From assembly GCF_014174395.1 (NCBI RefSeq), contig NZ_JABEQD010000016.1, forward strand, positions 1 to 64,000: a stretch of DNA of 64,000 bases, in the 5' to 3' direction. Source of the stretch: Gluconacetobacter aggeris (GTDB lineage: Bacteria > Pseudomonadota > Alphaproteobacteria > Acetobacterales > Acetobacteraceae). The translations under genes were made by a program, and so were the position numbers. The notes beneath the pieces were generated by a model that was given only the letters and a program-made list of their open reading frames with translations, was not told where the DNA came from and made no database searches. Shown in pieces: positions 37,183 through 52,161 of the stretch (positions are counted from its first letter, which is position 1; every line of letters starts with the position of its first letter).

Positions 37183-39498
37183 CTAGAGAGGTATGCTCGT
37201 TCGAATGGCAACGATGCGCCCGGCAGGGTCAAGAAATGCCGGTTGATAAGCCTCGGGCGTGTGGCCCGCTGAATCTCGGACTTTCTGCTGTCTGTCGAAT
37301 ATATTCGACACCGATATCCAGACTCTGAGAGATTTTTTCTTTATTTTGAAGGTATAGGAAACGACAGCATCTGCTGTCCAGAAACCGGCATAGTGGACGG
37401 AATAGGGCTCCGAGGCCGCAATATCCTGAACGCGCGATCCGGAGCGCCACTCCGCAGATAGCTGGAGGTTGAATCGCCGCCAGGATGTCTCGGCTTCTCC
37501 ATCCACCTTATGGCGTGGCGTACCGCGCACGCCGTCCAGGGGCGTTTTGAGTAAATCGACATTCGCCGTTCCTTGTGCCGGGCGGAGTTCGTCGTTCAAT
37601 GCCCATTCATCGGACAGGCTGAAATCCCAATCCAGCCCGTGTTCGGATGTTTTTCCATGCGGGACGACCGTGCCCGATACATGCAGGTTCGGGTGCAAGG
37701 TGTTGGTCGTCTCCCCGGCTGCATTGAAAGGACGACTATCCATCATGGTCAGTTGCCCGGTCGCATCCCGCGTGAACCGATTGGGAAACAGGCGCTGGAA
37801 TTGCGGATTCGGCGTTACGGCCGAGATAATGGGATTTGTGATCCTTGAGGATACATACTCCACTGTTGCGGCCAGGTTCGTAGTGCCGACCATCTTGTTG
37901 AAGCTGATGCGCGCCGTATTATTGGTCCGTGATGAAGAGTGGAGATTGGGGGTACCCCCTGATATCTCGGTGATCAGGGCATAGTTACCGGTAACGGCGT
38001 CCACGACCAAAGTTCCGGGGGGGTAGATGACAGGGGCATTGCTGCTGCCCAGGGTGGTCAGGGAGCCCGTCATGCTTCTGCCGAGACTAACCGCCAGTGC
38101 GTCGATCGGCTGCCACTGCCATGAGAAATCATAGCTCGGCAAGCTGCCGACATGCTGCGCTTGCTCATAGTCGCTGTTCAGAGACAGGGAAGTGGTACCG
38201 GGAATCTGGATTACAGGGAAATTCGGACTCGTCAGCGGAATCGCGACCCCGAAATGGGCGCGTGAGCGCATCTGTGCGTTACTTTGGTGATCGCTCTGGA
38301 TGAAACTGTAGGTCGAATCGAGCCGCTGGAAGTTCGTACTCAAACGAGCGTTCGCACTCATGTCGCCGGCGGGCAATGAAAAGAGTGGCGTATTGACCGT
38401 CACAGCGGCCCCAAGATCCGTGTTGCCCATACCGACCAACAGGGGTGTGTAGGTCGAAGGAATCTGGCTCAGGCTGCCGCTCGGTAAGGCTGCTGTGATG
38501 GTCTTGCGGGAAATATGGCTATCGGTATCGCTGGATGAAAAGGCACCGGTCAGTTCCGCCGACCAGTTCAGGCGTTTGTGCATACCGGAAACAGTCAGAC
38601 CAAGCCGGTATGAACGCGTGTGAGACTGGTCAATGATGCCATGGGTAGTGATGGAATGGTCCGCTTCTCCTGGCAGGAGTTCGTTCGAGACAGTGCCGCT
38701 TGTAAAGAAGCGGGTAAGCTGGCGGGATACGACCTCAGTAAGCGATCCCGAGCCATTCACACTGATCGACCCGATCGGGATGGCGAAACCCGGTATCAAA
38801 GCAAGCCTTCGATTGAATGGCGAGAGGGTCCGGTACGGGGTCAGCATCGCATCTTCACTGTCATCATCGAAGAGGTGGCGCCGATCTTGTCCATACAGGG
38901 CCTCGGTCTCCTGGCCGGACACCGCAGCGTTGAATCTCTTCTCGCCTCTGATGGTCACATATCTGAAGGCCGCATCTCCGCTATCGCCGCCGCCCTCCGT
39001 CGGTAGGTGGAGTTCTGGACTAGTGGTGAGCGATGAGAATTTCCTTTTCAGGACCAGGTTGAGGACCTTATTTTCCGGGCCGAAACCGTAACGACCGGCA
39101 CTGGAATTGGGAAGAATTTCAAGCCCGGCCAGAGCCTCCGGTGGGATTTCCCGGAGATCGGATATATCGGCCAGGCGTCGCCCATTAACGATGATGGAGA
39201 AGGGACGGCCGCCATTCCTGCGCTCAAGACGGGTAATGACTTCCCCTATTGTCATCGCCGCCAAATTGTCGATGTTTTGCGTCGAATAACGATCAATCGC
39301 ATCTTTCGTTTGCGTGGTTCGCCGTGCGGTTACGAGAACATTCGTCGATCGCGTCGTATTGTTTCCCGCACTGTCCGCGTATGATTTACCACCCATCAAA
39401 AGAACTATTACAAAAGCCATCATTGCTTTTGGCAACGATTGACTTATACTTTTATATGTCTCCCGCCTTTCTCGTTCGCGACAAGACCGAACTTTCAT
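37183..39498 (-). CDS. TonB-dependent outer-membrane receptor-like protein (771 aa)
   Basis: A signal-like segment (AMMAFVIVLLMGGKSYADS, residues 25-43) is followed by a plug domain: NVLVTARRTTQTKDAIDRY, GEVITRLERRNGGRPFSIIV, GRRLADISDLREIPPEALA and YGFGPENKVLNLVLKR. The rest is a beta-barrel with many Ser/Thr-rich strands, ending in RTSIPL. Such receptors import siderophores, cobalamin, peptides or sugars with TonB energy. It lies 20 nt downstream of the 332-residue gene on the same strand, so it belongs to the accessory operon. Base composition is less GC-rich than the atp genes. Ligand unknown. Confidence 0.8.
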   Translation of the reverse strand: MKVRSCRERERRETYKSISQSLPKAMMAFVIVLLMGGKSYADSAGNNTTRSTNVLVTARRTTQTKDAIDRYSTQNIDNLAAMTIGEVITRLERRNGGRPFSIIVNGRRLADISDLREIPPEALAGLEILPNSSAGRYGFGPENKVLNLVLKRKFSSLTTSPELHLPTEGGGDSGDAAFRYVTIRGEKRFNAAVSGQETEALYGQDRRHLFDDDSEDAMLTPYRTLSPFNRRLALIPGFAIPIGSISVNGSGSLTEVVSRQLTRFFTSGTVSNELLPGEADHSITTHGIIDQSHTRSYRLGLTVSGMHKRLNWSAELTGAFSSSDTDSHISRKTITAALPSGSLSQIPSTYTPLLVGMGNTDLGAAVTVNTPLFSLPAGDMSANARLSTNFQRLDSTYSFIQSDHQSNAQMRSRAHFGVAIPLTSPNFPVIQIPGTTSLSLNSDYEQAQHVGSLPSYDFSWQWQPIDALAVSLGRSMTGSLTTLGSSNAPVIYPPGTLVVDAVTGNYALITEISGGTPNLHSSSRTNNTARISFNKMVGTTNLAATVEYVSSRITNPIISAVTPNPQFQRLFPNRFTRDATGQLTMMDSRPFNAAGETTNTLHPNLHVSGTVVPHGKTSEHGLDWDFSLSDEWALNDELRPAQGTANVDLLKTPLDGVRGTPRHKVDGEAETSWRRFNLQLSAEWRSGSRVQDIAASEPYSVHYAGFWTADAVVSYTFKIKKKSLRVWISVSNIFDRQQKVRDSAGHTPEAYQPAFLDPAGRIVAIRTSIPL

Positions 39499-39518
39499 TC
39501 AGCCTCTCAAGGTGTTTT

Positions 39519-40517
39519 TTATACTTGTACAGTAGATGACTGATTCAGGATATCAGAAAGCGATGCGCCATCATTTATACCATTTATACTGTTCGTGTCG
39601 TTCTTTTTTTGTGTCTGGTCATTGCTATCTGATGACGTTATTTTGCCTTTTGAATCGGAAGAGCCGAACAGTTCATCCACGATTTCTTGGTCTAACTTTG
39701 CTCGCGCATTTTCAAAAGTAATCGGACTCTTCTTTTTATCCTCGGTCGAGGTATCCATAAACCATCCGGTATCCCCTCCCACAACGTGAGGTTTCGTCGG
39801 CGTCGGGGTCTTCCCGCCAGAAAAAGCACTCATTGGATCATATAGTCCACCGAACTCCTGGGTGCCTGCCTGTGCTTCCGCTCCCTGCTGATACGAGAAG
39901 GAATAGCTTGTCGTCGTGCTTCCATCGGCCGCTTGCGTCGTCGTTTCCTGAAGATTGATAGACAAACTATTCACGCCATAGGCGACACCGGCATTGGCAT
40001 CATACAAAATATCGGACAGTGCTTTCTGATAGTCAGAAGCATTTCCTGGTATGTTATACATAGGCGTATTCAAGAATGTATTCATCAGAGAGCTATTTTT
40101 TATATCGTCAAAGAATTTTCCTTCGAGCATTTCAAATTTATACCCGTATGAAGAGACATCATATTGAGCTGGTCCAATCGTTTGGGTGTTCGACAACGAT
40201 GACAGGGTGTAAGCTGCGCCAAAGGCTGCAATTTTTTCTTTGTCGCTGGATGCCGCACTGTTAATGACAGTCGCGGCTGCGGTATAGATTGCCGAAACGG
40301 CATCAAGTCCGCTGGTGCCGTCAGCGGCATCTAAATTGACCGCCTGCTGCGCCTCTTGTGATAGTACGACCGTATCACCGTCATCGCTGGCGGCAAGCGT
40401 GCTTATTGACGACGATTCCGCGTCGCTGGATGTGGTCGGGGTATCGTAAGCCGTGGGATCAGCCAAGAGCCTCGACCATGATCCGGACCATGAAATATTA
40501 CTCGTAATCGTCGTCAT
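39519..40517 (-). CDS. Ser/Thr/Ala-rich protein of unknown function (332 aa)
   Basis: No signal peptide and no family that I recognise. The N-terminal third is low complexity (SSDAESSSISTLAASDDGDT) with a GDTVVLSQEAQQAV motif. A related GDT-x-x-LS motif occurs in the product upstream of the IS1380 remnant (GDTITLSAAATAAL) and a looser one in the 266-residue protein. The middle is helical; the C terminus is polar and repetitive (SSDSKGKITSSDSNDQ). It is in one run with the TonB receptor. The composition resembles exported or surface proteins of large repetitive type, but function is unknown. Confidence 0.65.
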   Translation of the reverse strand: MTTITSNISWSGSWSRLLADPTAYDTPTTSSDAESSSISTLAASDDGDTVVLSQEAQQAVNLDAADGTSGLDAVSAIYTAAATVINSAASSDKEKIAAFGAAYTLSSLSNTQTIGPAQYDVSSYGYKFEMLEGKFFDDIKNSSLMNTFLNTPMYNIPGNASDYQKALSDILYDANAGVAYGVNSLSINLQETTTQAADGSTTTSYSFSYQQGAEAQAGTQEFGGLYDPMSAFSGGKTPTPTKPHVVGGDTGWFMDTSTEDKKKSPITFENARAKLDQEIVDELFGSSDSKGKITSSDSNDQTQKKNDTNSINGINDGASLSDILNQSSTVQV

Positions 40518-40564
40518 TGTGATTCACCAAAATTTTTGTTCGTATGGTTATTATTTTCTGTATT

Positions 40565-41051
40565 CTACAAACCCTTTATCGAAAAATACTCGTAGAAACT
40601 ATCGATAGCTGTTATCGGACCTGACGGTTCGGCGTAGCACGTCGGAATAGTCGTCGCTCCAGGCGGATAGAAGGGTGTCGCTGAATTATTTGGATAGTAA
40701 TAATTATTGTTGGCTATGGTATATTGATAGATGAATACAACTTGAAAATTGCACCCGTAGCTCTGATTTGTACTTGAACGCACATTAACGGAAAGAGTAA
40801 CATTCGTTTTTGTCGGGCCGGAGATGGATACCGCGTTCTGCGTTGATCCACTGTCTATTGTAACTGGTAGAGATGTCGTCAGCGAGAACGGGGACGTAAC
40901 GGTAGCATCCCCGATCCCAATAATTTATGGGTGTCGAATCACCATTATAGATGTCGATTGTACCAACGGTCTGAGCGCTTGCAACGCCCATGAATGGCAT
41001 GCCAATGGCTGCGATTGTGGCGAGTGCTGAAAAAAAATTCCGTTTGAACAT
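40565..41051 (-). pseudogene. Exported small protein interrupted by a frameshift
   Basis: The first frame starts with a good signal peptide (MFKRNFFSALATIAAIGMPF, cleavage near ASAQT) and continues TVGTIDIYNGDSTPIN. From about 40920 the protein-like sequence continues in the +1 frame: IGIGDATVTSPFSLTTSLPV, then VSISGPTKTNVTLSVNV and a Tyr/Asn-rich end reaching the stop at 40565. Together they give one exported beta-rich protein of about 160 residues. Alternatively the short first frame is the true product (88 aa, 40785-41051). Function unknown. Confidence 0.5.
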
Positions 41052-41234
41052 TTTTCCTTGCCCTTTCGCCGAACCGGATGGTTATGGATGCTGGAATGAC
41101 GCTATCGTTTTGCGCCGCCCATTCTAGCCCTATGCCCAAGCGGTTAACGAAAAGTTAAAATAGGGAATGTAATGAATTGGCCCCATTAAAACGATCTTAT
41201 AATTTCTATGCGATATGTAGATAAAACGTGGTAC

Positions 41235-41282
41235 TCATCTCTGGTTTTGTGTCTCTGGGTTAAAAACGACGCGATAGGTCAT
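41235..41282 (-). pseudogene. Truncated ParE/RelE-type toxin start
   Basis: An ATG overlapping the parD stop by ATGA opens MTYRVVFNPETQNQR and then stops at 41235. This is the beginning of a ParE/RelE-superfamily toxin; the rest is missing. The toxin was therefore cut off after about 15 codons. Confidence 0.6.
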
Positions 41283-41548
41283 CGCGTCCTGGCGTGTTCG
41301 GCGGCGAGGCGCGCGCGGACCTGCTCAGCCGACACGGCCCACGTCGGATCGGCGACCAGGACATCGTAAGCTGGCCCGACCTGGCTTTGCAGCCAGCTTT
41401 CGACGGCCCCATCGCGCGCCATAAGGGCACGCAAGTCGTCGCGAATGACTTCGCTTTCGCTGGCATATTCGCCCGCCTTAGCCTCGGCCTTCACCGCGTC
41501 GGCCATGTTGTTTGGAGGCGTGATGCTCATTTGCTGTGTCGTGCGCAT
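41279..41548 (-). CDS. parD: ParD-type antitoxin, orphaned (89 aa)
   Basis: MRTTQQMSITPPNNMADAV opens a ribbon-helix-helix domain; GEYASESEVIRDDLRALMARD is the ParD signature, and the toxin-binding C terminus (AVSAEQVRARLAAEHART) is intact. The ATG at 41548 is chosen by family length; upstream ATGs exist. It sits inside the unknown-protein operon, suggesting a later insertion. Its toxin partner is truncated, so it can only act as an orphan antitoxin or repressor. Confidence 0.75.
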   Translation of the reverse strand: MRTTQQMSITPPNNMADAVKAEAKAGEYASESEVIRDDLRALMARDGAVESWLQSQVGPAYDVLVADPTWAVSAEQVRARLAAEHARTR

Positions 41549-41606
41549 CGCGGTCTTCATTTCAATAGAATTAAATCCTATCACGAGCCCGGAAATCAAT
41601 TCACGG

Positions 41607-42407
41607 TCAGGATACGGTTGGAAGGAGCTGATCGACGGTATCAAGGGCGTTCTGAGCGGTCTGGAGATTGCTGTCCGACATCACGTCCTGCTTTTTCAGG
41701 TGTTCCCTGCTCTCCCGGAGCAGTGCCTTCATCTGGCTGGACAGGGCGGTGACAGCCTGCTGGAACTCCGGGTTGCCGTCTGCCGACGCGCCGGACTGTC
41801 CGGCGGTCACGGCCTGTCTGGGCATGGGATCAGACCCATCCGCATCCTGCATCGCCCCCGTTGCCGCCCGCTGGACATCGAGATCCGTCCCGTCGGCCGT
41901 CGTGGCCTCACCGGCTCCCGATGGAGCCTGTGGGCCATCCTGTGGCGCGGCCAGCACCATGTTACCCACAGCCGCGCCCCTGGCGTTCGTGCCGCCACTT
42001 TGCACGTACTGCGCCACGGCGGCCGCGAGTTGGGTTGTAAGCTGCGCCACTTCCAGAGCGAGGGCTTTGGGTGAAAGCAGGGCTTTCATTTCCATGAGCA
42101 GTCGCATCTGGGCATTGAGCATGTTGACCCGTTCTTCCGCAGCCTCCTTGGCGAACTGCCGGCCGGATTGGATCATCTGATCCAGCCGGGTCACGGCTTC
42201 CTGTTGGGCGGACAGCGCGGCGCCGCTGTTGGGGGATGCTCCCTTCAGGAAATCGAGACCGGTCTGCGAAAGCGTCACCAAAACGGCTGACGTGTCCGTC
42301 TGGTCCACCTGACCGGTGGCGGTGGAGGACACCTTGCCGTTGGTCGCACTATCCGCCACAGACGAACGGTCGTTGCCGGTGTATGTGGTCGTAGCGGAGA
42401 CGAACAT
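41607..42407 (-). CDS. Helical protein of unknown function (266 aa)
   Basis: The ATG at 42407 (MFVSATTTYTGND) has AGGA ten bases upstream; a TTG at 42440 overlaps the previous stop by TTGA and is an alternative. Low-complexity N terminus, then LVTLSQTGLDFLKG (similar to the GDTxxLS motif of neighbours), then long amphipathic helices (QFAKEAAEERVNMLNAQMRL) able to form coiled coils, and a final helix REHLKKQDVMSDSNLQ. No signal peptide. Unknown function; likely works with the genes on either side. Confidence 0.6.
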   Translation of the reverse strand: MFVSATTTYTGNDRSSVADSATNGKVSSTATGQVDQTDTSAVLVTLSQTGLDFLKGASPNSGAALSAQQEAVTRLDQMIQSGRQFAKEAAEERVNMLNAQMRLLMEMKALLSPKALALEVAQLTTQLAAAVAQYVQSGGTNARGAAVGNMVLAAPQDGPQAPSGAGEATTADGTDLDVQRAATGAMQDADGSDPMPRQAVTAGQSGASADGNPEFQQAVTALSSQMKALLRESREHLKKQDVMSDSNLQTAQNALDTVDQLLPTVS

Positions 42408-42436
42408 CGTTTTGTGGTCCTGGCTGACGGATTGAA

Positions 42437-43450
42437 TCAACTTTGGGAGAACCCCAATTCCTTGCGGGTCGTGGTCAGTGCCGCCTGGATCGCGGCTTCA
42501 TGCCCCTTGGCCCATGTCTCGTTGAACAGATCGGTGACATTGAGAACAGATGGGTTACTGCTGACATGCGCTTTCTGGGCGTTCTTCATCAACTCACTCA
42601 GCATCCCGACGATGGACAGGTTACTGACGTATTTTGAATCGACAGGCTTGTTTGCCGCGCCCATCTCTTCTTCATAAGCAGTCTGCACGGAGGCACGATT
42701 GAAGGCCCATCCGATCGTCGATTTTTCGTAAGAACCGGCCTTGTCTAAATACATGCTCAAGTTCTCCGAACTAGCTATAGACGCATAGGTCACATTCGAC
42801 CGGTTTGAAACCGTTGCATCACTTGAATCAATGGAATATCCTTGACCACTGGCAGGTGCAGGAGTGAATTTTGACTCAAGGTCCATTGGTCCGGAGTGAT
42901 TGCCTGTAGCAAGCTGCTCCTGCTGAAGCATGATGTACTGCGCCATGCCCTGTTCTTTTGTAGAGAACAGACCACCTTGATTCGACGACACCGCGGCCAG
43001 AGCGGTTCTGTCCAGACCGGACATCAGCGTGTACCAGTCCGTTCCGTTCGCGCTATCGTAATTGAATGGCTTTCCGCTAGCGTCCATGGAGGCGTATTCC
43101 GCATCCATGCTGGCACGCGCAGCCTGTGCGATCCCTGAAGCGCTGAGTCCGGTCGAGATCGTTGTGGCCGCAGGATCAAGCACATTTTCACCGAAACTCG
43201 CGGACGTGCCCGCGCGCGTGGGAAAGAATTGCGCGTAATAGGCCGCTTGCGAATCCGTCGTTGTGCTGGATGTTGCGGCAAGGGCAGCCGTGGCAGCCGC
43301 AGAAAGGGTAATCGTATCTCCGCTGTGGGACGTGGATGAGCTTGAATAACCCGATGTTTTCGTTGCCGTATCGCCTAACTCTTGCGTCGAACCATCATTT
43401 TTTGACGCGGCAAGGTAAATAGCGGCTGATTGTACCGCGCTAGCCCATCT
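42437..43450 (-). CDS. Unknown protein truncated at its N terminus by IS1380 debris (about 333 residues left)
   Basis: The minus frame is open from the IS junction at about 43450 and protein-like throughout: SAVQSAAIYLAASKND, HSGDTITLSAAATAAL, then DSQAAYYAQFFPTRAG, a Ser/Ala-rich middle and the C terminus VLNVTDLFNETWAKGHEAA. There is no suitable start near the junction (a TGA precedes), so the natural N terminus was probably lost; an internal ATG/TTG at 43183 would give a 248-residue product. A decayed copy of the C-terminal 30 codons lies at 58253-58345, so the gene belongs to a family with further copies. Confidence 0.55.
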   Translation of the reverse strand, partial: RWASAVQSAAIYLAASKNDGSTQELGDTATKTSGYSSSSTSHSGDTITLSAAATAALAATSSTTTDSQAAYYAQFFPTRAGTSASFGENVLDPAATTISTGLSASGIAQAARASMDAEYASMDASGKPFNYDSANGTDWYTLMSGLDRTALAAVSSNQGGLFSTKEQGMAQYIMLQQEQLATGNHSGPMDLESKFTPAPASGQGYSIDSSDATVSNRSNVTYASIASSENLSMYLDKAGSYEKSTIGWAFNRASVQTAYEEEMGAANKPVDSKYVSNLSIVGMLSELMKNAQKAHVSSNPSVLNVTDLFNETWAKGHEAAIQAALTTTRKELGFSQS

Positions 43451-43905
43451 TATTCACGGCATTGAGTATTTTGCGTGGATTTTTCTGCTTTTGTGGTTTG
43501 TGCGCGCGGGATCGCACCGAGTTGAGGCGGCGTCATTTTGAAACGGTGGATGGTTGCGGCTGGGGTTGCGGGGACGGGGCGGGTTCGGGGGCGATAGCCC
43601 CGTCTGTCACGGGCCGGCAGCCTGCATTGAGATGGCGAGACTGCGGAAAAGCGCCGCTTCGGGACAGGCGGCGGCAAAGGCGATACGGACACGGGTCGCG
43701 GTTTCCAGGATGCGTCCTGCGATTTTCAGGAGACGATTTCGTAACGTGGTGAATTCGGCCGAGGCGAGCGGCTGTGGGGCTGGGATGGCGTCCCGCAGGG
43801 TGAGCATCAGCCAGTATGCGGCGGTGTGCAGGACCAGGCGAACCAGGTTGGCCAGTGGCGATCGACAGCTCGTGCGGTCGGATGCCAGTTGGCCCTTGTG
43901 AAGCT
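43450..43905 (-). mobile_element. IS1380-family fragment (transposase C terminus and one end)
   Basis: Minus-strand translation gives ELHKGQLASDRTSC, LANLVRLVLHTAAYWLML, TLRDAIPAPQPLASAEF and RLLKIAGRILETATRVRIAF up to the stop at 43607, the C-terminal part of IS1380-type transposases common in acetic acid bacteria. About 100 of some 470 residues remain. The IS end lies near 43450 (TATTCACGG). The N-terminal part of the transposase and the start of the adjacent ABC exporter are both missing, so an IS-mediated deletion formed the junction at about 43905. Confidence 0.75.
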
Positions 43906-45763
43906 CGATCTGTCGTCGCTGACGAAGTTATCGCTGCCCTGCGTCCTGCATTGGGATTTCAACCATTTCGTGGTGCTGGTGAAAGCCGGCGAGAAAGAGA
44001 TCCTGATCCACGACCCGGCACGGGGCGCGCGAAAGCTGACTCTGGACGAAGCGTCGCGGCATTTTACCGGTGTGGCCCTGGAACTGACCCCGGCCGCGAC
44101 GTTCGAGAAGCGCGACGAACGCCGGTTGCTGAGCATCAGCGACATGTTCCGCCATATCTCGGGACTGAAGGGGGCGCTGCTGGCCCTGGGCGGCTTGTCC
44201 CTCGGTCTGGAAGTCATCGCCTTGGCCAATCCGATGCTGGCGCAGGTGATCATCGACGAGGTGCTGACGACGGGAGACCGTTCCCTGTTGTGGACGATCG
44301 CGGCCGGTCTGGTGCTTCTGGCGGCTCTGCAGGGGGTTATCGCGACCTTTCGGTCGTGGATGGTCATGCTGCTCTCCACGCGGATCTCCGTGCAGTGGAA
44401 TGTCAGCCTGTTCTCCCATCTCATGGGCTTGCCGCAGGACTATTTCGCGAAGCGTGGAGCGGGGGACATCCTGTCGCGCTTTGGCAGCCTAGGGACGATC
44501 CAGCAGACCTTCACGACCGATTTGGTGCAGAGTGTGATGGATGGCCTGATGGCGATCGGCATGTTCGTGATGATCGTGATCTACGGGAAGTGGCTGGCGG
44601 CAATCGCTGTGGTGTCTTCCCTGCTCGATCTGATGGTGCGGATTGTCCTGTTCGCACCCTATCGGGAGATGTCCGAAGAGGCGCTGGTCCATGGGGCGGC
44701 TCAGCAGGGGTATTTTCTGGAAACATTGAGAGGAATGCGCAGCATCAAGCTGTTGTCCTTGGAAGGACGACGGAAGATCGCCTGGGGAAACAGGATGATC
44801 GACAGCATCAATGCGGGATTGAAGATCCAGCGATACGACCTGATTTTTGTGCGGGGGCAGGAAGCCCTGTTCGGGCTTGATCGTGTGCTGATGCTGGTCC
44901 TTGGGGCTAGGATGGTGATCTCGGCCGAGATGTCGGTTGGGATGCTGATGGCATTCTTGAGTTACAGGGATCAGTTTGCAAATCGCTTTGGCAGTGTGGT
45001 GACGGCTGGGTTCAAGATCCGGAATCTGAAAGTACAATGTGGCCGGCTTTCCGATATAGCTTTGGCTGAATCAGAAATAGCCGATTACACTATGCTGTCC
45101 GTCCCGCCACCGATCGACGTCAATCCTGACGTGCCTGTGATCGAATGCCGAAATATTGGGTATCGATACGGCAAAGAAGACGCCTGGGTATTTCGTGGAG
45201 TGAATCTGAAGGTGCCAACTGGGAAAAGCTTGACTATTACAGGGCCTTCCGGTTGTGGTAAGTCCACATTACTGGCGATCATGATGGGATTGATCCAGCC
45301 GGAAGAGGGGCAGGTGATGTGGAATGGTGTAGAGCTTGGACCGGCGAACCGGGAGGCGTATCGGTTGCAGATTGCTGGCGTGCTACAGGACGATATTCTG
45401 TTATCGGGGAGCATTGCCGAGAATATCGCAGGTTTTGATGAATCCATGGATATGGGTTGGGTTATGGATTGTGCAAGGAAAGCACAGGTTTTTGAAGATA
45501 TCCAGAGAATGCCAATGGGGTTTGAAACCCTCATCAGCGAAATGGGGCATACGCTTTCTGGGGGGCAGCGTCAGCGTGTTATTTTAGCAAGAGCGCTTTA
45601 TCGCAAGCCGAATATTTTATTTCTTGATGAAGTAACGAGTCATCTCGATATAAATATCGAAAGATCTGTTCATAAAATAATTAATGAATTGAAATCCACG
45701 CGCATAATGATAACGCATCGCATTGATGCGGAAAATAATAATGTTTATGAGATTAAATTATAA
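43906..45763 (+). pseudogene. Peptidase-containing ABC exporter (PCAT), N terminus lost
   Basis: About 618 residues remain. First comes the second half of a C39 peptidase domain (LSSLTKLSLPCVLHWDFNHFV with the catalytic His, then HDPARG with the Asp); the half with the catalytic Cys is gone. A six-helix transmembrane domain follows, then the ATPase: Walker A GPSGCGKST, signature LSGGQRQRV, Walker B ILFLDEVTSH, H-loop THR. Intact relatives cleave double-glycine leaders and export the peptides. The open frame reaches back to a GTG at 43826 inside IS sequence, which is not a natural start. GG-leader genes downstream fit as its substrates. Confidence 0.8.
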
Positions 45764-46022
45764 TTTCTATGAATATTTTTAATATATATGATTTAAATTT
45801 GAATATTAATATAATAAAATCTGAATTTGTTATCCCGTTTGCGAAGTTGTGACAAATTTTCGGATAAAAATCTCTTCGAATGCCATCCAGCATGCGCTAC
45901 ACTCTGTTTGCGTCGGTTCTCCGAAATCGTTACGGGCTTTTCGTTTCTCGCAAAAAGCATTCATCGATTTCAGAGTGTGGTGCATCTATTCGTGTTGGAT
46001 GCCGTGATCAAGGATAGACGAA
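45764..46022. other. AT-rich interval upstream of the first GG-leader peptide
   Basis: About 260 bp, very A+T-rich at the left (45770-45835). It should contain the promoter for the peptide-protease pair. No gene seen. Confidence 0.4.
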
Positions 46023-46289
46023 ATGGAAAATCTGAATAATTCTGAAATTGATATGGTTGTTGGCGGTCTTCCTGCTGATGTCTCTGATGAGTTTTGGACT
46101 GAACAAAATGTGGGGAGTAGCGTCCTCACGATGCAAGCGATGGGAGCTGTAGGTGTCTCAGGAATGAATATCGGTTCTATTGAGAAGTATTATAGATCTA
46201 TGGGATACAAGGTTGGAACGAAAGAAATTCTTAGCGGAGATATCTATGAACCAGAATGGCTGGCTGATCCAAGCCATCGTATTTCGTAG
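46023..46289 (+). CDS. Double-glycine-leader peptide precursor 1 (88 aa)
   Basis: The ATG at 46023 follows AAGGA eight bases upstream. MENLNNSEIDMVVGG is a canonical double-glycine leader (hydrophobic residues at -4, -7 and -12 to the GG, acidic SEID), cleaved by C39 peptidases of ABC exporters. The predicted 73-residue core starts LPADVSDEFWTEQNVG, has a small-residue-rich middle (MQAMGAVGVSGMNIGS) and a charged tail ending DPSHRIS; no Cys. This looks like a bacteriocin/microcin-type or signalling peptide. The exporter lies just upstream on the same strand and an exported retropepsin-like gene just downstream. Confidence 0.75.
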   Translation: MENLNNSEIDMVVGGLPADVSDEFWTEQNVGSSVLTMQAMGAVGVSGMNIGSIEKYYRSMGYKVGTKEILSGDIYEPEWLADPSHRIS

Positions 46290-46327
46290 AGGGACAGTTT
46301 TTATCGCGTAGTTTTTCTTTTATAAAA

Positions 46328-46365
46328 AGAGTTTTGGACAGAATTTCTATTCTGTCCAAAACTCT
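46328..46365 (+). promoter_or_regulatory. Perfect 17-bp hairpin between peptide 1 and the aspartyl-protease-like gene
   Basis: AGAGTTTTGGACAGAAT-TTCT-ATTCTGTCCAAAACTCT: 17 perfect pairs with a 4-nt loop, beginning 39 bp after the peptide stop and ending 16 bp before the protease ATG. No T-tract follows, so it may protect the peptide mRNA end, attenuate readthrough, or mask the protease ribosome-binding site. Confidence 0.65.
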
Positions 46366-46381
46366 CTGTGAAAGTCTATTC

Positions 46382-47380
46382 ATGAAATTGGAGCAAGAAA
46401 TATTGAAGAAAATATTTTTAATATTGATCTTTATGTGTCACATCCAACAGGTCTGGGCGGAAGAACGTAGATCTTGTGTTGCAGCCGCACTGATTCTCCC
46501 TCTTTTGGGGGGGAGAAATGATACACCTATCATCCCTGTAAAGGTGAATGGACGTGATGTTGCGATGTACGTCAGTCCTGCTTTCTTCGGTGGTCTCTAT
46601 TTACGTGAGAGTCAAGATTTTACCCTAAGACCAGGCCGAATTCGAGGACGCATTACGGAAAATGCGGGTCACACTGTTCCCGCTGAGATTTCGTTTCTGG
46701 ACAGCTTGGAAATCGGAGGAGCAAAAGTCGATTCACCCCAGTTTATTCGGATGCCGGGAGTGGTTACTCAAACAATCGATGGGAAGCCGCTCGTCGGAGT
46801 GATTGGTGATTCGATATTGTCGAATTTTCAGGTGCTGATTGACATGCCGCATGCGCGTCTCGCTTTGCTGAAGATCTCCCGGGATGATTCCTGTACCGAT
46901 GTAGAGAAGAAACTCTTGGGTGATAAGGTGTACTCATTACCGATGAGGGGAGATCGGTGGAAAATTCCTGTTAAAATAGATGGAATAGAGAAATTATTTT
47001 CTCTGGATCCAGATACTGGTGTAACGGTAGTCCCATTAGGATGGACCATCATACCTGAGTTGAACCAGAACGCCGTGGCAAAAGGGGAGCGGGTGATGAT
47101 CCGCTATACAAGTAGTCTCGGTGATGGAGTTATGGGAAGGAAGGTGATCGTCCATGACATGCATGTGTCGGATGACGAATTACCTGAAACGTCCGTTATA
47201 GTCCAAGACGGGACCGGTGACGCTGTAATCGGAACACCTTTTTTTGAAAATCATCAGGTTCTGATTGATTATGAAAGGAAGATTGTATTCTTCTCGGATT
47301 CAAGAAACTTGATGAAATCATCAGGTAATAATTTGCATTTCGCGCAGATATTTAGCGGACTTTCAGAAGTTAAAGAATGA
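46382..47380 (+). CDS. Exported retropepsin-like aspartyl-protease-family protein 1 (332 aa)
   Basis: The ATG at 46382 gives a signal peptide (KIFLILIFMCHIQQVWAEE). Two pepsin/retropepsin-like lobes follow. Lobe 1: IPVKVNGRDVAMYVSPAFFG, LEIGGAKVDS, and GVIGDSILSNFQVLIDMPH with the family's hydrophobic psi-loop. Lobe 2: IPVKIDGIEKLFSLDPDTG and AVIGTPFFENHQVLIDYER. The usual DTGA is replaced by SPAF in lobe 1 and is DPDTGV in lobe 2, so one catalytic Asp seems lost. It may be a regulated protease, or a binding/immunity derivative. Located after the GG-leader peptide. Confidence 0.65.
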   Translation: MKLEQEILKKIFLILIFMCHIQQVWAEERRSCVAAALILPLLGGRNDTPIIPVKVNGRDVAMYVSPAFFGGLYLRESQDFTLRPGRIRGRITENAGHTVPAEISFLDSLEIGGAKVDSPQFIRMPGVVTQTIDGKPLVGVIGDSILSNFQVLIDMPHARLALLKISRDDSCTDVEKKLLGDKVYSLPMRGDRWKIPVKIDGIEKLFSLDPDTGVTVVPLGWTIIPELNQNAVAKGERVMIRYTSSLGDGVMGRKVIVHDMHVSDDELPETSVIVQDGTGDAVIGTPFFENHQVLIDYERKIVFFSDSRNLMKSSGNNLHFAQIFSGLSEVKE

Positions 47381-47389
47381 ACTGAACAA

Positions 47390-47595
47390 TGGCCTGCCGG
47401 TGTGATCGTCCTCGATACCCGCAGTGCTTGTCGTGACCTTGCCTCCAACATGCCCCCAGTTCTGAGTTGGGGTCTGTGGGTTGATATATGCCTTTTTGGC
47501 GTGTTGGGCGAAAGCCTCTGGCGTCTTGCCGTTGAGACTGGTGTGGGGTCCGACGGCATTGTAGTCGGCCCGCCAATCCTCGATGACCGAGCGGG
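47390..47595 (-). mobile_element. IS3-family transposase C-terminal fragment
   Basis: Minus-strand translation from about 47595 gives ARSVIEDWRADYNAVGPHTS, LNGKTPEAFAQ and a tail to the stop near 47390, the end of an IS3-type integrase-core transposase. The rest of the element is absent. It abuts an IS630 piece on the opposite strand. Confidence 0.65.
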
Positions 47596-47790
47596 CGTGG
47601 GTATGACCGCATCCTTCGTGCATGAGGGCGCCATAAACGGCGAGATTTTTCAGGCCTATGTCGAGCAGGTCGTCATGCCGACGCTGAGCCCGGGCGATAT
47701 CGTCGTGCTGGACAATTTGTCCACTCATAAGATTCCGAGCGCGCGAAAGGCCATCGAACTGGCGGGGGCGCAGATATGGATCGGTAAATA
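47596..47790 (+). mobile_element. IS630-family transposase internal fragment
   Basis: Plus-strand translation gives GMTASFVHEGAINGEIFQAY, VEQVVMPTLSPGDIVVLDNL and STHKIPSARKAIELAGAQIW, the DDE region of IS630-type transposases (LDNLSTHK). Both ends are missing. It separates the two convergent peptide-protease modules. Confidence 0.65.
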
Positions 47791-47795
47791 TTTCA

Positions 47796-49157
47796 TCAAT
47801 CGTTTTTGTAAAAGCACAACAAAGATTTGTTAAGATCAATATATATATTATTTGAATAATATATATTCCCACCAATAATATATTGACTTTCGCGAGTTTT
47901 GTCCAAAATGTAGTCTCCTTTATATTTTTTTTCAGATCCTCCAGGGAGGTTTAGAGAAAAATATTTCGAATATGATCTCATATTTTCGTCGAATCCAAAT
48001 GATTTTATAATTATTTTTTCGGATTTATTATATTCTTCTTGCGAAAATTTGTTTTTGTACGCAAGTATGGTGTTGCTATTCAGCCCCGTATCTAATACAG
48101 ATTTTTCAATTTTACCATCTATGGCCGCGTTGAAGATGATGTTTCTTTCATAGCCACCTTGTCCATACCCAAAATAGAAGTTGTTTTTGCATGATTCTTT
48201 ATTGTCTGAGTGTAATCTCATGGAATTTTTTGAAATAAGAATTGGAGACAGTTTTGATAATAACATGTTTCCTACTGTTATATCACCTTTCGGCAGGATT
48301 ACTGCAGGTAAATTGTATATATTAATATCATTAATTTTAATGTTTTTTATAATACCAAATGGTAGGCTTTCTGTGCCGCCAGTAGAAATTTTGAAGTTTT
48401 TTATTTCACCTATTACCTTAACATTAAATGATTCTACGTATTTTTGAGGGATTGTAGTTAAAAGAACTCCTGTATCTACGATGGCATCAAAGTTTTCATT
48501 TGATTTAGAGATTATTATATGAGGACTATATCCATATTTGGAAGTTTTGATTGGAATATCATTATTTGTTTTCTCTGTAATAGTAGCAAATAGGTTTTCT
48601 GTAATTGGATTTGTTAATTCGACATTGTCAACTCCGTTAATGTGAAGATTTTCGACATCTGCGCTTTTTTCCAAGGACGGTTTCAATACGCTGTCTATGT
48701 ATTTTTTCACAAAGTACCAATCTTTAGTTCGTCCTTCTGAGAACAGGTCTTCCGCATATATGTATTCTAAATACAATATTACTTCTATGTTTGGGTTCTT
48801 TTGGTTTTTGAAATACTGCAATCCTGACTCGATATTTTTATCGGCGCAATTATAATCACCTCTTACTCGGCATTCAGATATATAATAGAGATTTTTTTCT
48901 AATGGTGTTTTAGCATTGGATAAACTAATTCTCATTGCATCTCCGAGCCCATGATATATCTTATACGAGATATCGTATGGGTCTGATACATCTATGTAAT
49001 ATCCGTCGTCTGTTTTTGATTTCGTTATTGTGTTTATAATGTCGTTCGGAATTGAAAAATTCGGTACATTTTTTGTTTCGCACAATGCCGGTTTCTGTAG
49101 AGTGCAATCGAATAAAGACAATATTGCCAGTGTGCTGGATAATTTTTTCTTAAACAT
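47796..49157 (-). CDS. Exported retropepsin-like aspartyl protease 2 (453 aa)
   Basis: Signal peptide MFKKKLSSTLAILSLFDCTL... ends near PALCE. Residues about 40-190 are helical and TPR-like (ISECRVRGDYNCADKNIESG), then two retropepsin-like lobes, each with a catalytic-type DTG: AIVDTGVLLTTIP and SVLDTGLNSNTIL. Each lobe also has the family hydrophobic-Gly motif (VGNMLLSKLSPILI; YIIGGNIYYSNNIYIDL). It is therefore predicted to be an active bilobal aspartyl protease in the periplasm or outside the cell. The gene is strongly A+T-rich. It lies 116 bp downstream of the second GG-leader gene on the same strand, mirroring the first module. Confidence 0.7.
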   Translation of the reverse strand: MFKKKLSSTLAILSLFDCTLQKPALCETKNVPNFSIPNDIINTITKSKTDDGYYIDVSDPYDISYKIYHGLGDAMRISLSNAKTPLEKNLYYISECRVRGDYNCADKNIESGLQYFKNQKNPNIEVILYLEYIYAEDLFSEGRTKDWYFVKKYIDSVLKPSLEKSADVENLHINGVDNVELTNPITENLFATITEKTNNDIPIKTSKYGYSPHIIISKSNENFDAIVDTGVLLTTIPQKYVESFNVKVIGEIKNFKISTGGTESLPFGIIKNIKINDINIYNLPAVILPKGDITVGNMLLSKLSPILISKNSMRLHSDNKESCKNNFYFGYGQGGYERNIIFNAAIDGKIEKSVLDTGLNSNTILAYKNKFSQEEYNKSEKIIIKSFGFDENMRSYSKYFSLNLPGGSEKKYKGDYILDKTRESQYIIGGNIYYSNNIYIDLNKSLLCFYKND

Positions 49158-49273
49158 ACTTATCCTTCTTCGTGATGAATGGAAGGTGAATTTGTATGAG
49201 GAACAATATATAAAGCTCAGTTATAGAACTGACGATGCGGCTAAGCGCATCGTCAGGAAATAATTTATTATTT

Positions 49274-49610
49274 TCAGTGAAAGGGTACATAAGTGCCAGG
49301 TGGCATCTGACCTCCGGTATTTCCTCCAATAGGATGAGATACCGTGACCGAACCACCTGTTGCTCCACCTTGGTTGCCGCTTACCGTTCCCGTTGCTGTC
49401 CAGCCACCCCCTACGGAGCCCGAGCCTGTAGCACTCCAAGATAAGGTCGGCGACCCGCCACCGCCGAACCCTCCACTTCCGGAGACACCACCGGATGCAC
49501 CTCCCATTCCTGTCGTTGAATTTTGACCGCCCGGATTTTGATCCGGATTTGCTATTTCGCCACCAGTAACTTGGATAAGCTCCGCTTCAAGCAAATCACG
49601 TATTTTTCAT
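49274..49610 (-). CDS. Double-glycine-leader, Gly-rich peptide precursor 2 (about 106 aa)
   Basis: From a TTG at 49594 the product reads LLEAELIQVTGG, a GG leader, followed by a Gly/Ser/Thr-rich core (EIANPDQNPGG, GGFGGGGSP, SATGSGSVGGGWTATG) ending GTYVPFH. An ATG at 49608-49610 lies one base out of frame: with four instead of five A's in the ATGAAAAAT run it would read MKIRDLLEAELIQVTGG, a textbook leader. So the gene has either a non-ATG start or a homopolymer frameshift. The Gly-rich core resembles microcin-like peptides. Followed by aspartyl protease 2. Confidence 0.6.
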
Positions 49611-49946
49611 CCTTTTGGAAAAATATGAAAAATATACTGATTCAGTGGGAAGAGGCTCCCAATGCAAAACTTTGCAACAAAAGAGATGTTTTGCAATATT
49701 AACGTTTTGTCATTAAATTGTCGTTAATCAAGTCTGGGATCTCCTGTTTGGAAATATTGTTCATTCTCTGCTGCTGTTACATTATGGATAATTAGGGTAA
49801 CAGGCGGCGCCGGCTGAGCCGCCCCGAAGTCCGGAAAACCACCCGTCCGACGCCTTTTTCCTGCTACCGCGCCGCTCGGTCTGTTACAGTTCTCGGGAGA
49901 ATATGCCCAAAGCCCCCTATCCGGCCCCGCCTCGCCCCTGCGTCAG
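49611..49946. other. Interval between GG-leader gene 2 and the WGR gene
   Basis: AT-rich at the left (promoter of peptide 2 expected near 49620-49760, e.g. CAATATTAACG and TTGTCGTTAATC) and GC-rich from about 49805, which marks the end of the accessory region. No gene seen. Confidence 0.4.
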
Positions 49947-50165
49947 TTGGCCTTTTTCCCCGAGGCGCCGAACTGCTGGCGCTTCTACCGGCTGTGCCTG
50001 CGGGGCGATCTGTTCGGCGGTACCGCCCTGCTCCGCCAATGGGGGCGGATCAGGACCGCCGGGCAATGCCGCCTCGATCTCCATGCCGACGATGCAGCCC
50101 GCCGCAGCTTCGCAATCGGCATTCGCAAGACGCCGGGGGCCACGGCATTCAGCGTGATGGCCTGA
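49947..50165 (+). CDS. WGR-domain protein (72 aa or slightly longer)
   Basis: The product contains CWRFYRLCLRGDLFGGTALL and RQWGRIRTAGQCRLDL, the WGR domain (named after its Trp-Gly-Arg), a nucleic-acid-binding module seen in PARPs and small bacterial proteins. No ATG is in frame; TTG at 49947 is the likely start, although the open frame reaches further upstream. The C terminus after DDAARRSFA does not look like the usual RKRRGY end, so a late frameshift is possible. Confidence 0.55.
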   Translation: MAFFPEAPNCWRFYRLCLRGDLFGGTALLRQWGRIRTAGQCRLDLHADDAARRSFAIGIRKTPGATAFSVMA

Positions 50166-50357
50166 CCCTCATGCGCTTCCTGCGGCCGGTCTGGTCCGCG
50201 TGCCTGATCGGATCGGCGGTCGCCTTTCTCGTCATGCGCGGCCGGCTTGCGGGATAGGGCCTGCGGACGGTCCTGACGCCCGCGCCGTTTCTGCCGAATT
50301 GAGAAAATCCGGTTGCCGGGGCGGCCGTGGCAGGCGGAACGGGGGAGGGGGGGGCGC

Positions 50358-50837
50358 TCAGCCCCGACCGCGATATCCAGGCACGTCCTGCGCGGGAATC
50401 CACACATCCTGCGGCGGGGCGCCGGTCTGCCAGAAGACGTCGATGGGCATGCCGCCGCGCGGGTACCAGTAGGCGCCGATGCGCAGCCAGACCGGGGAGA
50501 GCAGGTCGACCAGGGTGGTGGCGATCTGGACCGAGCAGGCTTCGTGGAAGGCGCCGTGGTTGCGGAAGCTGGTCAGGAACAGTTTGAGCGACTTGCTTTC
50601 CACGATCCACTGGTCGGGCACGTAGTCGATGACCAGGTGGGCGAAGTCCGGCTGGCCGGTGACGGGGCAGAGCGAGGTGAATTCCGGCGCGGTGAAGCGG
50701 ACCAGGTAGCGCCGGTCGCGATAGGGGGCGGGGACGCGCTCCAGCGTCGCGTCCTCGGGGCTGGTGGGCTGGGGGGAGGCGCGGCCGAGCTGGGTGAGGG
50801 CCTGGGTGCCGTCGTCCGGCGGGGTGGATGCGCTCAC
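50358..50837 (-). CDS. queF: NADPH-dependent 7-cyano-7-deazaguanine (preQ0) reductase QueF (159 aa)
   Basis: QueF reduces the preQ0 nitrile to preQ1 in queuosine synthesis, in the cytoplasm. Short (type I) form. Catalytic Cys in [12 protein letters not shown], substrate-binding Glu in [19 protein letters not shown] and AFHE are present. Stands alone; no other queuosine genes nearby. Confidence 0.94.
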
Positions 50838-50979
50838 GTTCCGTGATCCTTGCTATAGCGGGGCTCTGTGGAGAAGGGTGATGTCAGAGCCGCCTTTCCT
50901 GCGTCAAGCGGCGCTTTTCCCCCGCCGGTGCCCGCGTGGGTGCTTTCGCACCGGCATGGGCCCATGATAACAGGACCGG

Positions 50980-52161
50980 ATGGCGCGTGCACTCAAGGCG
51001 GATTTTCCCGCTCCTGTCCTGATGACCTCCACTGACGAGCTGATTGCGGTCGTCGAACGATTGCGGCGCGAGCCGTTCGTGACGATCGATACCGAGTTCG
51101 TCCGCGAACGGACCTACTGGCCCGAGCTGTGCCTGGTGCAACTGGCCGGCGCGCATGACGTGGTGGTGGTGGATGCGCTGGCGCCCGGCCTGGACCTGGC
51201 GCCGCTGGGGGAACTGCTGGACGACCCGGCGGTGACCAAGGTGTTCCATGCCGCGCGGCAGGATCTGGAGATCTTCCTGCATCTGTTCGACCGGCTGCCG
51301 GCGGCGCTGTTCGATACCCAGGTGGCGGCGATGGTGGCCGGTTATGGCGACCAGGTCGGATATGACAATCTGGTCTCGTCGCTGACGGGCGCGCATATCG
51401 ACAAGGCGCATCGGTTTTCGGACTGGGCGGCGCGCCCGCTGTCGCCGGCGCAGATTGCCTATGCCGCCGCCGACGTGACCTATCTGCGCACCGTCTACCA
51501 GCTTCTGCGCGAGCGGCTGGAGAAGGAAGGGCGCATGGAGTGGGTGGCAGCCGAACTGGCGGTGCTGACCCGGCCCGAGACCTTCCGCCCCGATCCCGAG
51601 ACCCTGTGGGAGAAGATGCGCCCGCGCACCAGCAACCGGCGCATGCTGGGCGTGCTGCGGGCCATTACCGCGTGGCGCGAACTGGAGGCCCAGCGGGTGA
51701 ACGTGCCGCGCCAGCGGCTGCTGAAGGATGAGAGCCTGCTGGAGATCGCGGCCACCGGGCCGGCCGATGTCGATGCGCTGGCCCGGGTGCGCGGCGTCTC
51801 GCGCGGGTTTGCCGAGGGGCGGAGCGGGGCCGGGCTGCTGGAGGCCATTGCGGCCGCGCATGCGCTGCCCGATGCCTCCCTGCCGCGCCAGAGCAAGGGC
51901 AAGGATGGTCCGCGCCCGTCGCCGGCGCTGGTTGCGCTGTTGAAGGTGCTGCTGGCGGCATGCTGCGAGGAGCATGACGTGGCGCCGCGCCTGGTGGCGT
52001 CGTCGGAGGATATCGACCGGCTGGCGATGGATGCCGAGCCGGACCTGCCGCTGCTGCGGGGATGGCGGCGGGTGGTGTTCGGCGAGGATGCGCTGGCGCT
52101 GAAGGCCGGGACCATGCTGCTGGGCGTGGATGGGACGCGCATCCGCCGCGTTCCGACCTGA
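50980..52161 (+). CDS. rnd: Ribonuclease D (393 aa)
   Basis: 3'-5' exoribonuclease that trims tRNA 3' ends. DEDDy motifs: FVTIDTEFVRE (DE), VFHAARQDLEIF (D) and AYAAADVTYLRTVY (Y..D). One HRDC domain follows (MLGVLRAITAWRELEAQRV...LLKDESLLEIA, about residues 220-290), then a second weaker helical domain. Start is ATG at 50980; ATG at 51022 (MTSTDELIAVVERL) is an alternative close to the domain start. Confidence 0.92.
   Translation: MARALKADFPAPVLMTSTDELIAVVERLRREPFVTIDTEFVRERTYWPELCLVQLAGAHDVVVVDALAPGLDLAPLGELLDDPAVTKVFHAARQDLEIFLHLFDRLPAALFDTQVAAMVAGYGDQVGYDNLVSSLTGAHIDKAHRFSDWAARPLSPAQIAYAAADVTYLRTVYQLLRERLEKEGRMEWVAAELAVLTRPETFRPDPETLWEKMRPRTSNRRMLGVLRAITAWRELEAQRVNVPRQRLLKDESLLEIAATGPADVDALARVRGVSRGFAEGRSGAGLLEAIAAAHALPDASLPRQSKGKDGPRPSPALVALLKVLLAACCEEHDVAPRLVASSEDIDRLAMDAEPDLPLLRGWRRVVFGEDALALKAGTMLLGVDGTRIRRVPT

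Follow-up and report, generated by a model that had tools for sequence, protein, structure and literature searches.

Peptide-protein pairs in a low-GC segment

In a 64,000-nucleotide stretch of Gluconacetobacter aggeris (positions 1 to 64,000 of contig NZ_JABEQD010000016.1; hereafter the window), a low-GC segment encodes two GG-leader peptides, each followed by an exported protein resembling aspartic proteases, beside a truncated gene for a C39-type ABC exporter (PCAT). PCAT exporters cleave GG-leader peptides and export them. The two pairs are convergent, with intergenic gaps from peptide to protein of 92 nucleotides (pair 1) and 116 nucleotides (pair 2). G+C content amounts to 30-48% per 600-base block across 45600-49799 as against 67-75% past 49800, and the segment sits between an insertion-sequence-marked stretch and this high-GC flank. 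It is best read as what remains of a decayed, microcin-type island for PCAT-dependent peptide export in Gluconacetobacter, AT-rich and scarred by insertion sequences. The key cassette of this island would be pair 2, namely an exported Gly-rich peptide together with an exported, putatively bilobal retropepsin bearing both catalytic aspartates. The open reading frames (ORFs) and other features are collected in Table 1.

Table 1. Features of the low-GC segment and its exporter-side border (window positions).
Feature	Position	Strand	Basis or remark
C-terminal remnant of DDE transposase (PF13701)	43610..43903	-	Pfam E 7.6e-27, profile positions 339-431 of 435
5'-truncated C39-type ABC exporter (PCAT) ORF	43826..45763	+	Homologous part from 43898
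GG-leader peptide 1, 88 amino acids	46023..46289	+	Leader pattern, ORF
Exported protein 1, bilobal pepsin-like model	46382..47380	+	ORF open from 46334; signal peptide by eye
Transposase fragments of two types, between the pairs	47381..47830	PF13358 on +, PF13683 on -	Pfam
Exported protein 2, two retropepsin-like motifs	47796..49157	-	Signal peptide by eye
GG-leader, Gly-rich peptide 2	49274..49594	-	First usable start TTG

The GG-leader pattern picks out 2 of the 427 window ORFs of 40-170 amino acids, exactly peptides 1 and 2. Elsewhere it is found in 2 of 2498 ORFs in 26 background loci and in 40 of 6572 ORFs in 68 PCAT loci; it was devised after such leaders had been viewed, and it misses the peptide of genome G054 described below. 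The initial annotation had proposed, on each strand, a GG-leader gene followed by an exported protein. For the plus strand this is borne out by the ORF coordinates. On the minus strand the protein and the gene order stand, but the peptide start at 49610 has to be given up, because the frame 49274-49610 contains two in-frame stops; the earliest start possible in the leader frame is TTG 49594. This leader frame has no ATG here, and the copy of peptide 2 in Gluconacetobacter tumulicola (L098) is intact and ATG-started. The two are identical across the 106 residues compared, with 0 nucleotide differences in 321 nucleotides. Peptide 1 has a leader of 15 residues and a core that is not Gly-rich; in the G. 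tumulicola copy the C-terminal 44 residues are 95% identical and the remainder is without match. Near this pair-1 remnant, G. tumulicola encodes a further GG-leader peptide, whose core is Gly-rich and has two cysteines (L099:1932-2165, plus strand). GG-leader ORFs also occur in series near one PCAT, four in G091 (L155:5634-7362, minus strand) and five in G246 (L215).

The C39 exporter that had been annotated before the first pair is there as regards its membrane and ATPase domains (PF00664, E 3.8e-31; PF00005, E 1.1e-30), but the gene is 5'-truncated and part of the peptidase is gone, the Pfam C39 match spanning only profile positions 45-132 of 133. What is left is 86% identical to residues 75-697 of an intact PCAT (L095:9159-11258) of the sister genome G256. 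The part equivalent to the first 74 residues of that homologue is replaced by transposase sequence, a DDE transposase remnant abutting the truncated 5' end on the opposite strand. The missing N-terminal part of the C39 peptidase is the part that holds the catalytic cysteine. The truncated exporter is the only C39 match in its genome, and C39 matches are present in 5 of the 14 genomes of the genus. When the intact region of outer-membrane gene, HlyD and PCAT was used as a DNA query against the own genome, only the exporter piece and two short weak matches on contig C11 (39 and 177 bases, 93% and 66% identity) were obtained; no HlyD or outer-membrane gene of the exporter operon is left by this DNA search, a protein-level whole-genome search for HlyD not having been made. 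Export by the window copy has therefore probably ceased to work. In G. tumulicola (G253) no C39 match is found in the genome, and the outer-membrane gene of the exporter operon matches in two frames; G256 has a complete HlyD-PCAT pair.

Beside the intact exporter of G256, a GG-leader peptide, a DUF6624 protein (Pfam E 2.9e-14) and an ATP-grasp-like protein (a weak match of 19 bits against a cut-off of 31.4) are encoded on one strand (L095:11355-13662, minus), possibly yielding a modified peptide with a GG leader. In G249, where the PCAT is divided between two contigs, the exporter is adjoined by a GG peptide and an ORF of 74 amino acids.

Relatives of the two exported proteins

Protein 2 reads DTG in both lobes, and its first lobe matches PF13650 (32.2 bits, cut-off 24.3). 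In its structure model, the N-terminal region is helical and the retropepsin-like motifs follow. By sequence it is rare: 4 of the 249 family genomes surveyed and 1 of the 385 class genomes had a match, the own genome included, and a three-member profile gave matches in 6 of the 249. Pair 2 is kept, peptide and protein, in G. tumulicola. Neither protein 1 nor protein 2 had a match by tblastn against 72,556 plasmid records. Among the PADLOC models one weak match was obtained, for protein 2 (PDC-M08B, E 3.4e-4), and none for the five other proteins given.

Related cassettes lie on plasmids of acetic acid bacteria. Plasmid pKB14400_1 of Kozakia baliensis carries, in order, a GG peptide, a gap of 67 nucleotides, a protein-2 homologue, a small lipoprotein-like ORF, HlyD and PCAT. 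The homologue aligns with protein 2 at an hhalign probability of 96.4% (E 1.1e-9), matches PF13650 above cut-off and is annotated as a retropepsin-like aspartic protease in the public record. It was spotted on inspection of the gene that follows a Gly-rich GG peptide in a PCAT locus and was confirmed afterwards, having been missed by the first hidden Markov model (HMM) screen; one genome of the genus was included in the genome survey. In a second Kozakia strain (pKB16680_4) the peptide-plus-protease stretch is without difference across 1708 nucleotides, and the exporter may be broken, since the PCAT match there is split in two. On a conjugative plasmid of Gluconobacter thailandicus the order is HlyD, PCAT, protein-2 homologue (profile E 1.3e-30; annotated as a hypothetical protein) and small lipoprotein-like ORF, with two GG-leader peptides on the opposite strand, the nearer one 1.1 kb upstream of HlyD. 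The core of the Kozakia peptide is homologous to that of the first Gluconobacter peptide (score 179 vs 55.3, s.d. 8.5, for shuffles). Between the two Gluconobacter peptides the cores are unlike and the C-terminal tail is nearly the same; this tail is absent from the Kozakia and window peptides. Among the plasmid-record PCAT matches listed (40 of 1022), nine besides the two Kozakia ones, listed after them, are alphaproteobacterial; a retropepsin-like gene was present within the stretch examined in one of seven of these, that of Gluconobacter thailandicus. The Serratia, Klebsiella and Salmonella plasmid PCATs among these listed matches are 43-45% identical to the Kozakia PCAT, and one of them is annotated as a colicin V biosynthesis protein.

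Within the protein-2 subgroup, linkage to peptides and retention of the catalytic residues go together. Both catalytic aspartates are kept in all four linked members (window, G. tumulicola, Kozakia and Gluconobacter), lobe 1 of the Kozakia protein reading DSA; these four are not independent, as the window and G. tumulicola proteins are 97% identical. By comparison, neither aspartate is present in any of the seven unlinked copies tabulated, which occur in tandem or singly in G008, G085 and G228, genomes without a C39 match (a broken copy in G192 was left out of the motif table). In a tree that did not include the Gluconobacter protein, window protein 2 grouped with the unlinked copies and not with the Kozakia protein, at low support (0.33). 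The check suggested in the initial annotation, that GG-leader genes should lie next to protease homologues, is thus answered positively for part of the pair-2 family: the Kozakia, Gluconobacter and G. tumulicola homologues lie near Gly-rich GG peptides, but the seven copies in three genomes do not. For pair 1 the answer is negative.

Protein 1 has a structure model of good quality (predicted local distance difference test, pLDDT, 84.1) with a bilobal aspartic-protease fold. Its best Foldseek matches are pepsin-like (BACE1, E 4.1e-12, probability 1.00), at a TM-score of only about 0.5, and its Pfam match to PF13650 (E 1.3e-4) is under cut-off. The lobe-1 DTG is replaced by SPA, and the lobe-1 catalytic Asp is absent in all 16 aligned members of the protein-1 clade; most of these retain an Asp at the aligned place in lobe 2 without the full motif. 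Protein 1 is therefore predicted to be a pseudoprotease. The sole record found for it in the genome collection was that of G. tumulicola LMG 27725 (99% identity, with 1 nonsynonymous and 4 synonymous changes), and matches of some strength occur in 77 of the 249 family genomes. A GG-leader ORF within 700 nucleotides upstream was found for none of the 19 relatives examined, comprising all 16 non-window matches with E < 1e-25 and three weaker ones, so pair 1 is, going by these relatives, no conserved pairing. Since the two proteins belong to different tree groups and protein 1 lacks the catalytic motif, the pairs are not two copies of one module, contrary to what had been claimed.

A third retropepsin clade is represented in G054, where a sulfotransferase, HlyD, PCAT, a GG peptide, a radical SAM protein, a Fic/2OG-Fe(II)-oxygenase protein (also with a weak C39 match) and a bilobal retropepsin with DTG in both lobes are encoded on one strand, with transposase-like ORFs interspersed (L167:3014-12491, minus). 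This run looks like a modified-peptide cluster. The clade is present in 2 of the 26 genomes of the genus of G054. G025 has a retropepsin 41% identical to that of G054 about 4 kb from HlyD-PCAT, and no GG peptide was recognised near it. No PCAT was found in the stretches examined around the relatives in G656, G126 and the second G025 copy, and no exporter was annotated near the plasmid matches in Novosphingobium and Empedobacter. Some 3.7 kb from the third-clade retropepsin of G126 lies a loose GG-leader-like ORF (L194:5384-5569, minus strand).

The PCAT loci surveyed for retropepsin-like genes numbered 68, drawn from 96 match places by hand count; left out were the window's own place, a second place in the G054 locus and 26 others, mostly C39 ORFs under 400 amino acids or weak matches, with two near-duplicates. 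Screening went in steps: 40 loci gave two genes, 20 and then 8 further loci gave none, and Kozakia was added by reading. With an improved profile, a scan of 209 loci revealed no further retropepsin-like gene at a PCAT locus. Several motif matches were rejected, namely L211/L212 (a histidine phosphatase by Pfam, L211), L180 (DUF347), L186 (no Pfam match, apparently a spurious antisense ORF), one in L167 (the PCAT ORF) and one in L233 (an 888-residue ORF).

Possible roles of the exported retropepsins

At the complete HlyD-PCAT loci of G256 and of the Kozakia and Gluconobacter plasmids, the exporter would cleave and export GG-leader peptides, which may be antibacterial. The retropepsin would then be a periplasmic protein cognate to its own peptide, capturing and cutting whatever stays in, or returns to, the periplasm of the producer, which would thereby be protected. 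Protein 1, having the fold without the catalytic pair, could protect only through binding. Because the N-termini look like signal peptides by eye, peptide and protein genes are adjacent in the window and in Kozakia, and the catalytic pair is retained, the exported peptide is a probable target of the retropepsin in the periplasm. The whole reading, a decayed island whose cognate retropepsin cuts its own peptide for self-protection, is put forward tentatively and with somewhat less than even confidence.

A somewhat less likely alternative is that the periplasmic retropepsin carries out a second maturation step after cleavage and export by the PCAT, trimming the peptide (for example, its C-terminal tail) to the active form. 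Retention of both catalytic aspartates in the four linked members would fit such a role, as would the tail shared by the two Gluconobacter peptides of unlike core, which is what a common processing signal would look like. The separate DTG/DTG clade running with a GG peptide, the radical SAM protein and the oxygenase protein in G054 points the same way, and in Kozakia and Gluconobacter the lipoprotein-like ORF could serve as the immunity gene. Nevertheless, that tail is missing from the Kozakia and window peptides, protein 1 holds the same position without a catalytic pair, and peptides of the PCAT exporter class usually need no second cleavage, which counts against maturation. Self-protection is slightly favoured over maturation; the tilt is towards protection by binding or cutting, because a predicted pseudoprotease adjoins peptide 1.

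For the own strain, it is fairly likely that the segment is a dead relic from which nothing is exported and by which nothing is protected, its genes being leftovers of a degraded peptide-export locus. The truncated exporter, the lack of operon HlyD and outer-membrane genes in the DNA search, the peptide-2 leader frame without ATG, the transposase fragments and the state of the operon in G. tumulicola all fit this account. Yet all four peptide and protein genes are still open in the window, the few changes in protein 1 relative to G. tumulicola are mostly synonymous, and protective genes may outlast producer genes. Apart from this, pair 1 may be accidental, though with somewhat less than an even chance: protein 1 could stem from a family of envelope pseudoproteases that stand alone in acetic acid bacteria and have been moved beside peptide 1 in an island rich in insertion sequences. 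The spread of protein-1 matches over the family, the unlinked relatives and the transposase fragments that flank the block of exporter and pair 1 on both sides agree with such a history. It is less easily reconciled with the position of peptide 1 and protein 1 on one strand at a short distance, with their being AT-rich as pair 2 is, and with G. tumulicola, in which protein 1 still adjoins the end of peptide 1.

Several observations weigh against self-protection by a cognate retropepsin. The genes are retained in the own genome and in G. tumulicola, and neither has an intact C39 exporter; the 19 protein-1 relatives are unlinked to GG-leader ORFs; and the Gluconobacter peptides lie outside the protease operon. 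Peptide 2 is only weakly like the Kozakia and Gluconobacter peptides (p 0.0065 and 0.0090, respectively), partly through composition. Next to protein 2, neither the window nor G. tumulicola was found to have a small lipoprotein-like ORF, and in Kozakia and Gluconobacter this ORF is a rival immunity candidate. The structure model of protein 2 is poor (pLDDT 43.6). Compared with G. tumulicola, the protein-2 gene differs by 12 nonsynonymous and 9 synonymous changes, a nonsynonymous-to-synonymous ratio (pN/pS) of about 0.34 that may indicate weak constraint; the neighbouring gene 50980-52161 shows 8 and 27, respectively. The own genome encodes another retropepsin (L113) that is unlinked to peptides, lies outside the subgroup and keeps both aspartates, so the catalytic-residue rule is limited to the subgroup and does not extend to the whole fold. 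Finally, a retropepsin-like gene occurs at only 3 of the 68 other PCAT loci, searched up to about 10 kb on each side, and such genes are therefore rare there; in one of the three the gene directly follows a GG peptide. About 1.5 of 68 would be expected, an estimate based on five PF13650 proteins plus protein 1 in 4.32 Mb and on 1.08 Mb screened. Proximity alone is thus not clearly enriched, and weight is placed on adjacency and homology.

For the acetic acid bacteria more broadly, it is conceivable, with the balance lying somewhat against it, that a mobile, PCAT-served cassette circulates, consisting of a Gly-rich, microcin-like GG peptide, a catalytically intact bilobal retropepsin of the periplasm as dedicated partner and a small lipoprotein. 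Three clades of the fold would then have been drawn into peptide-export loci, one of them as pseudoproteases.

Relation to known systems and flanking genes

The exporter of colicin V and the class II microcins is of the CvaB type. The PCAT/HlyD systems of these bacteriocins share the exporter family, the HlyD partner and the GG-leader cargo with the loci described here, but the window exporter differs in lacking the N-terminal peptidase part. To our knowledge, a gene of the retropepsin fold has not been described at any class II microcin locus. Self-protection and maturation in exported-peptide competition are usually credited to membrane proteins, lipoproteins or serine and cysteine proteases. 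If the proposed role is true, an aspartic protease joins the parts of such competition systems. Further, aspartates kept in linked and lost in unlinked members of the subgroup are suggested as a mark for unrecognised peptide-export loci, and the plasmids of culturable, food-associated bacteria offer a testable pair.

Among exported bacterial retropepsin-like enzymes with DTG chemistry, RloA of Pseudomonas aeruginosa is described as dimeric and related to RimB, its gene being accompanied by those of an inactive transglutaminase and an ATP-grasp protein (PMC12239564). The window proteins differ in matching PF13650-type models, not a RimB-type family, and the word "bacteriocin" has 0 occurrences in the text of that paper. 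PecA of pathogenic mycobacteria is a surface aspartic protease that processes secreted substrates, though these are type VII secretion substrates and not GG-leader peptides (PMC6819658). The leader proteases of ribosomally synthesised and post-translationally modified peptides (RiPPs) are alike in being dedicated to exported peptides; the text of a review on them holds no word beginning with aspartyl, aspartic, pepsin or retropepsin (PMC10885120). In the open-licence PMC literature, no description of a peptide-retropepsin pairing was found in titles and abstract openings, and nothing was found on retropepsin-like together with bacteriocin. Both the exporter and the peptides belong to kinds already known, and the retropepsin partner appears to be new. 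As relatives carry a similar set with a complete exporter, the cassette would seem to be an accessory of peptide export in bacteria that has so far gone undescribed.

Two further observations concern the flanks of the segment. The gene next to pair 2 (49988-50865, minus strand) looks frame-broken here, its match to the G. tumulicola homologue being spread over two frames. On the exporter side, 37183-43183 (minus strand) encodes a TonB-receptor-like protein with a weak Plug match and two unknown proteins (41607-42440 and 42437-43183), a trio of which a second copy, 67-97% identical, is present on contig C3 of the same genome (L117).

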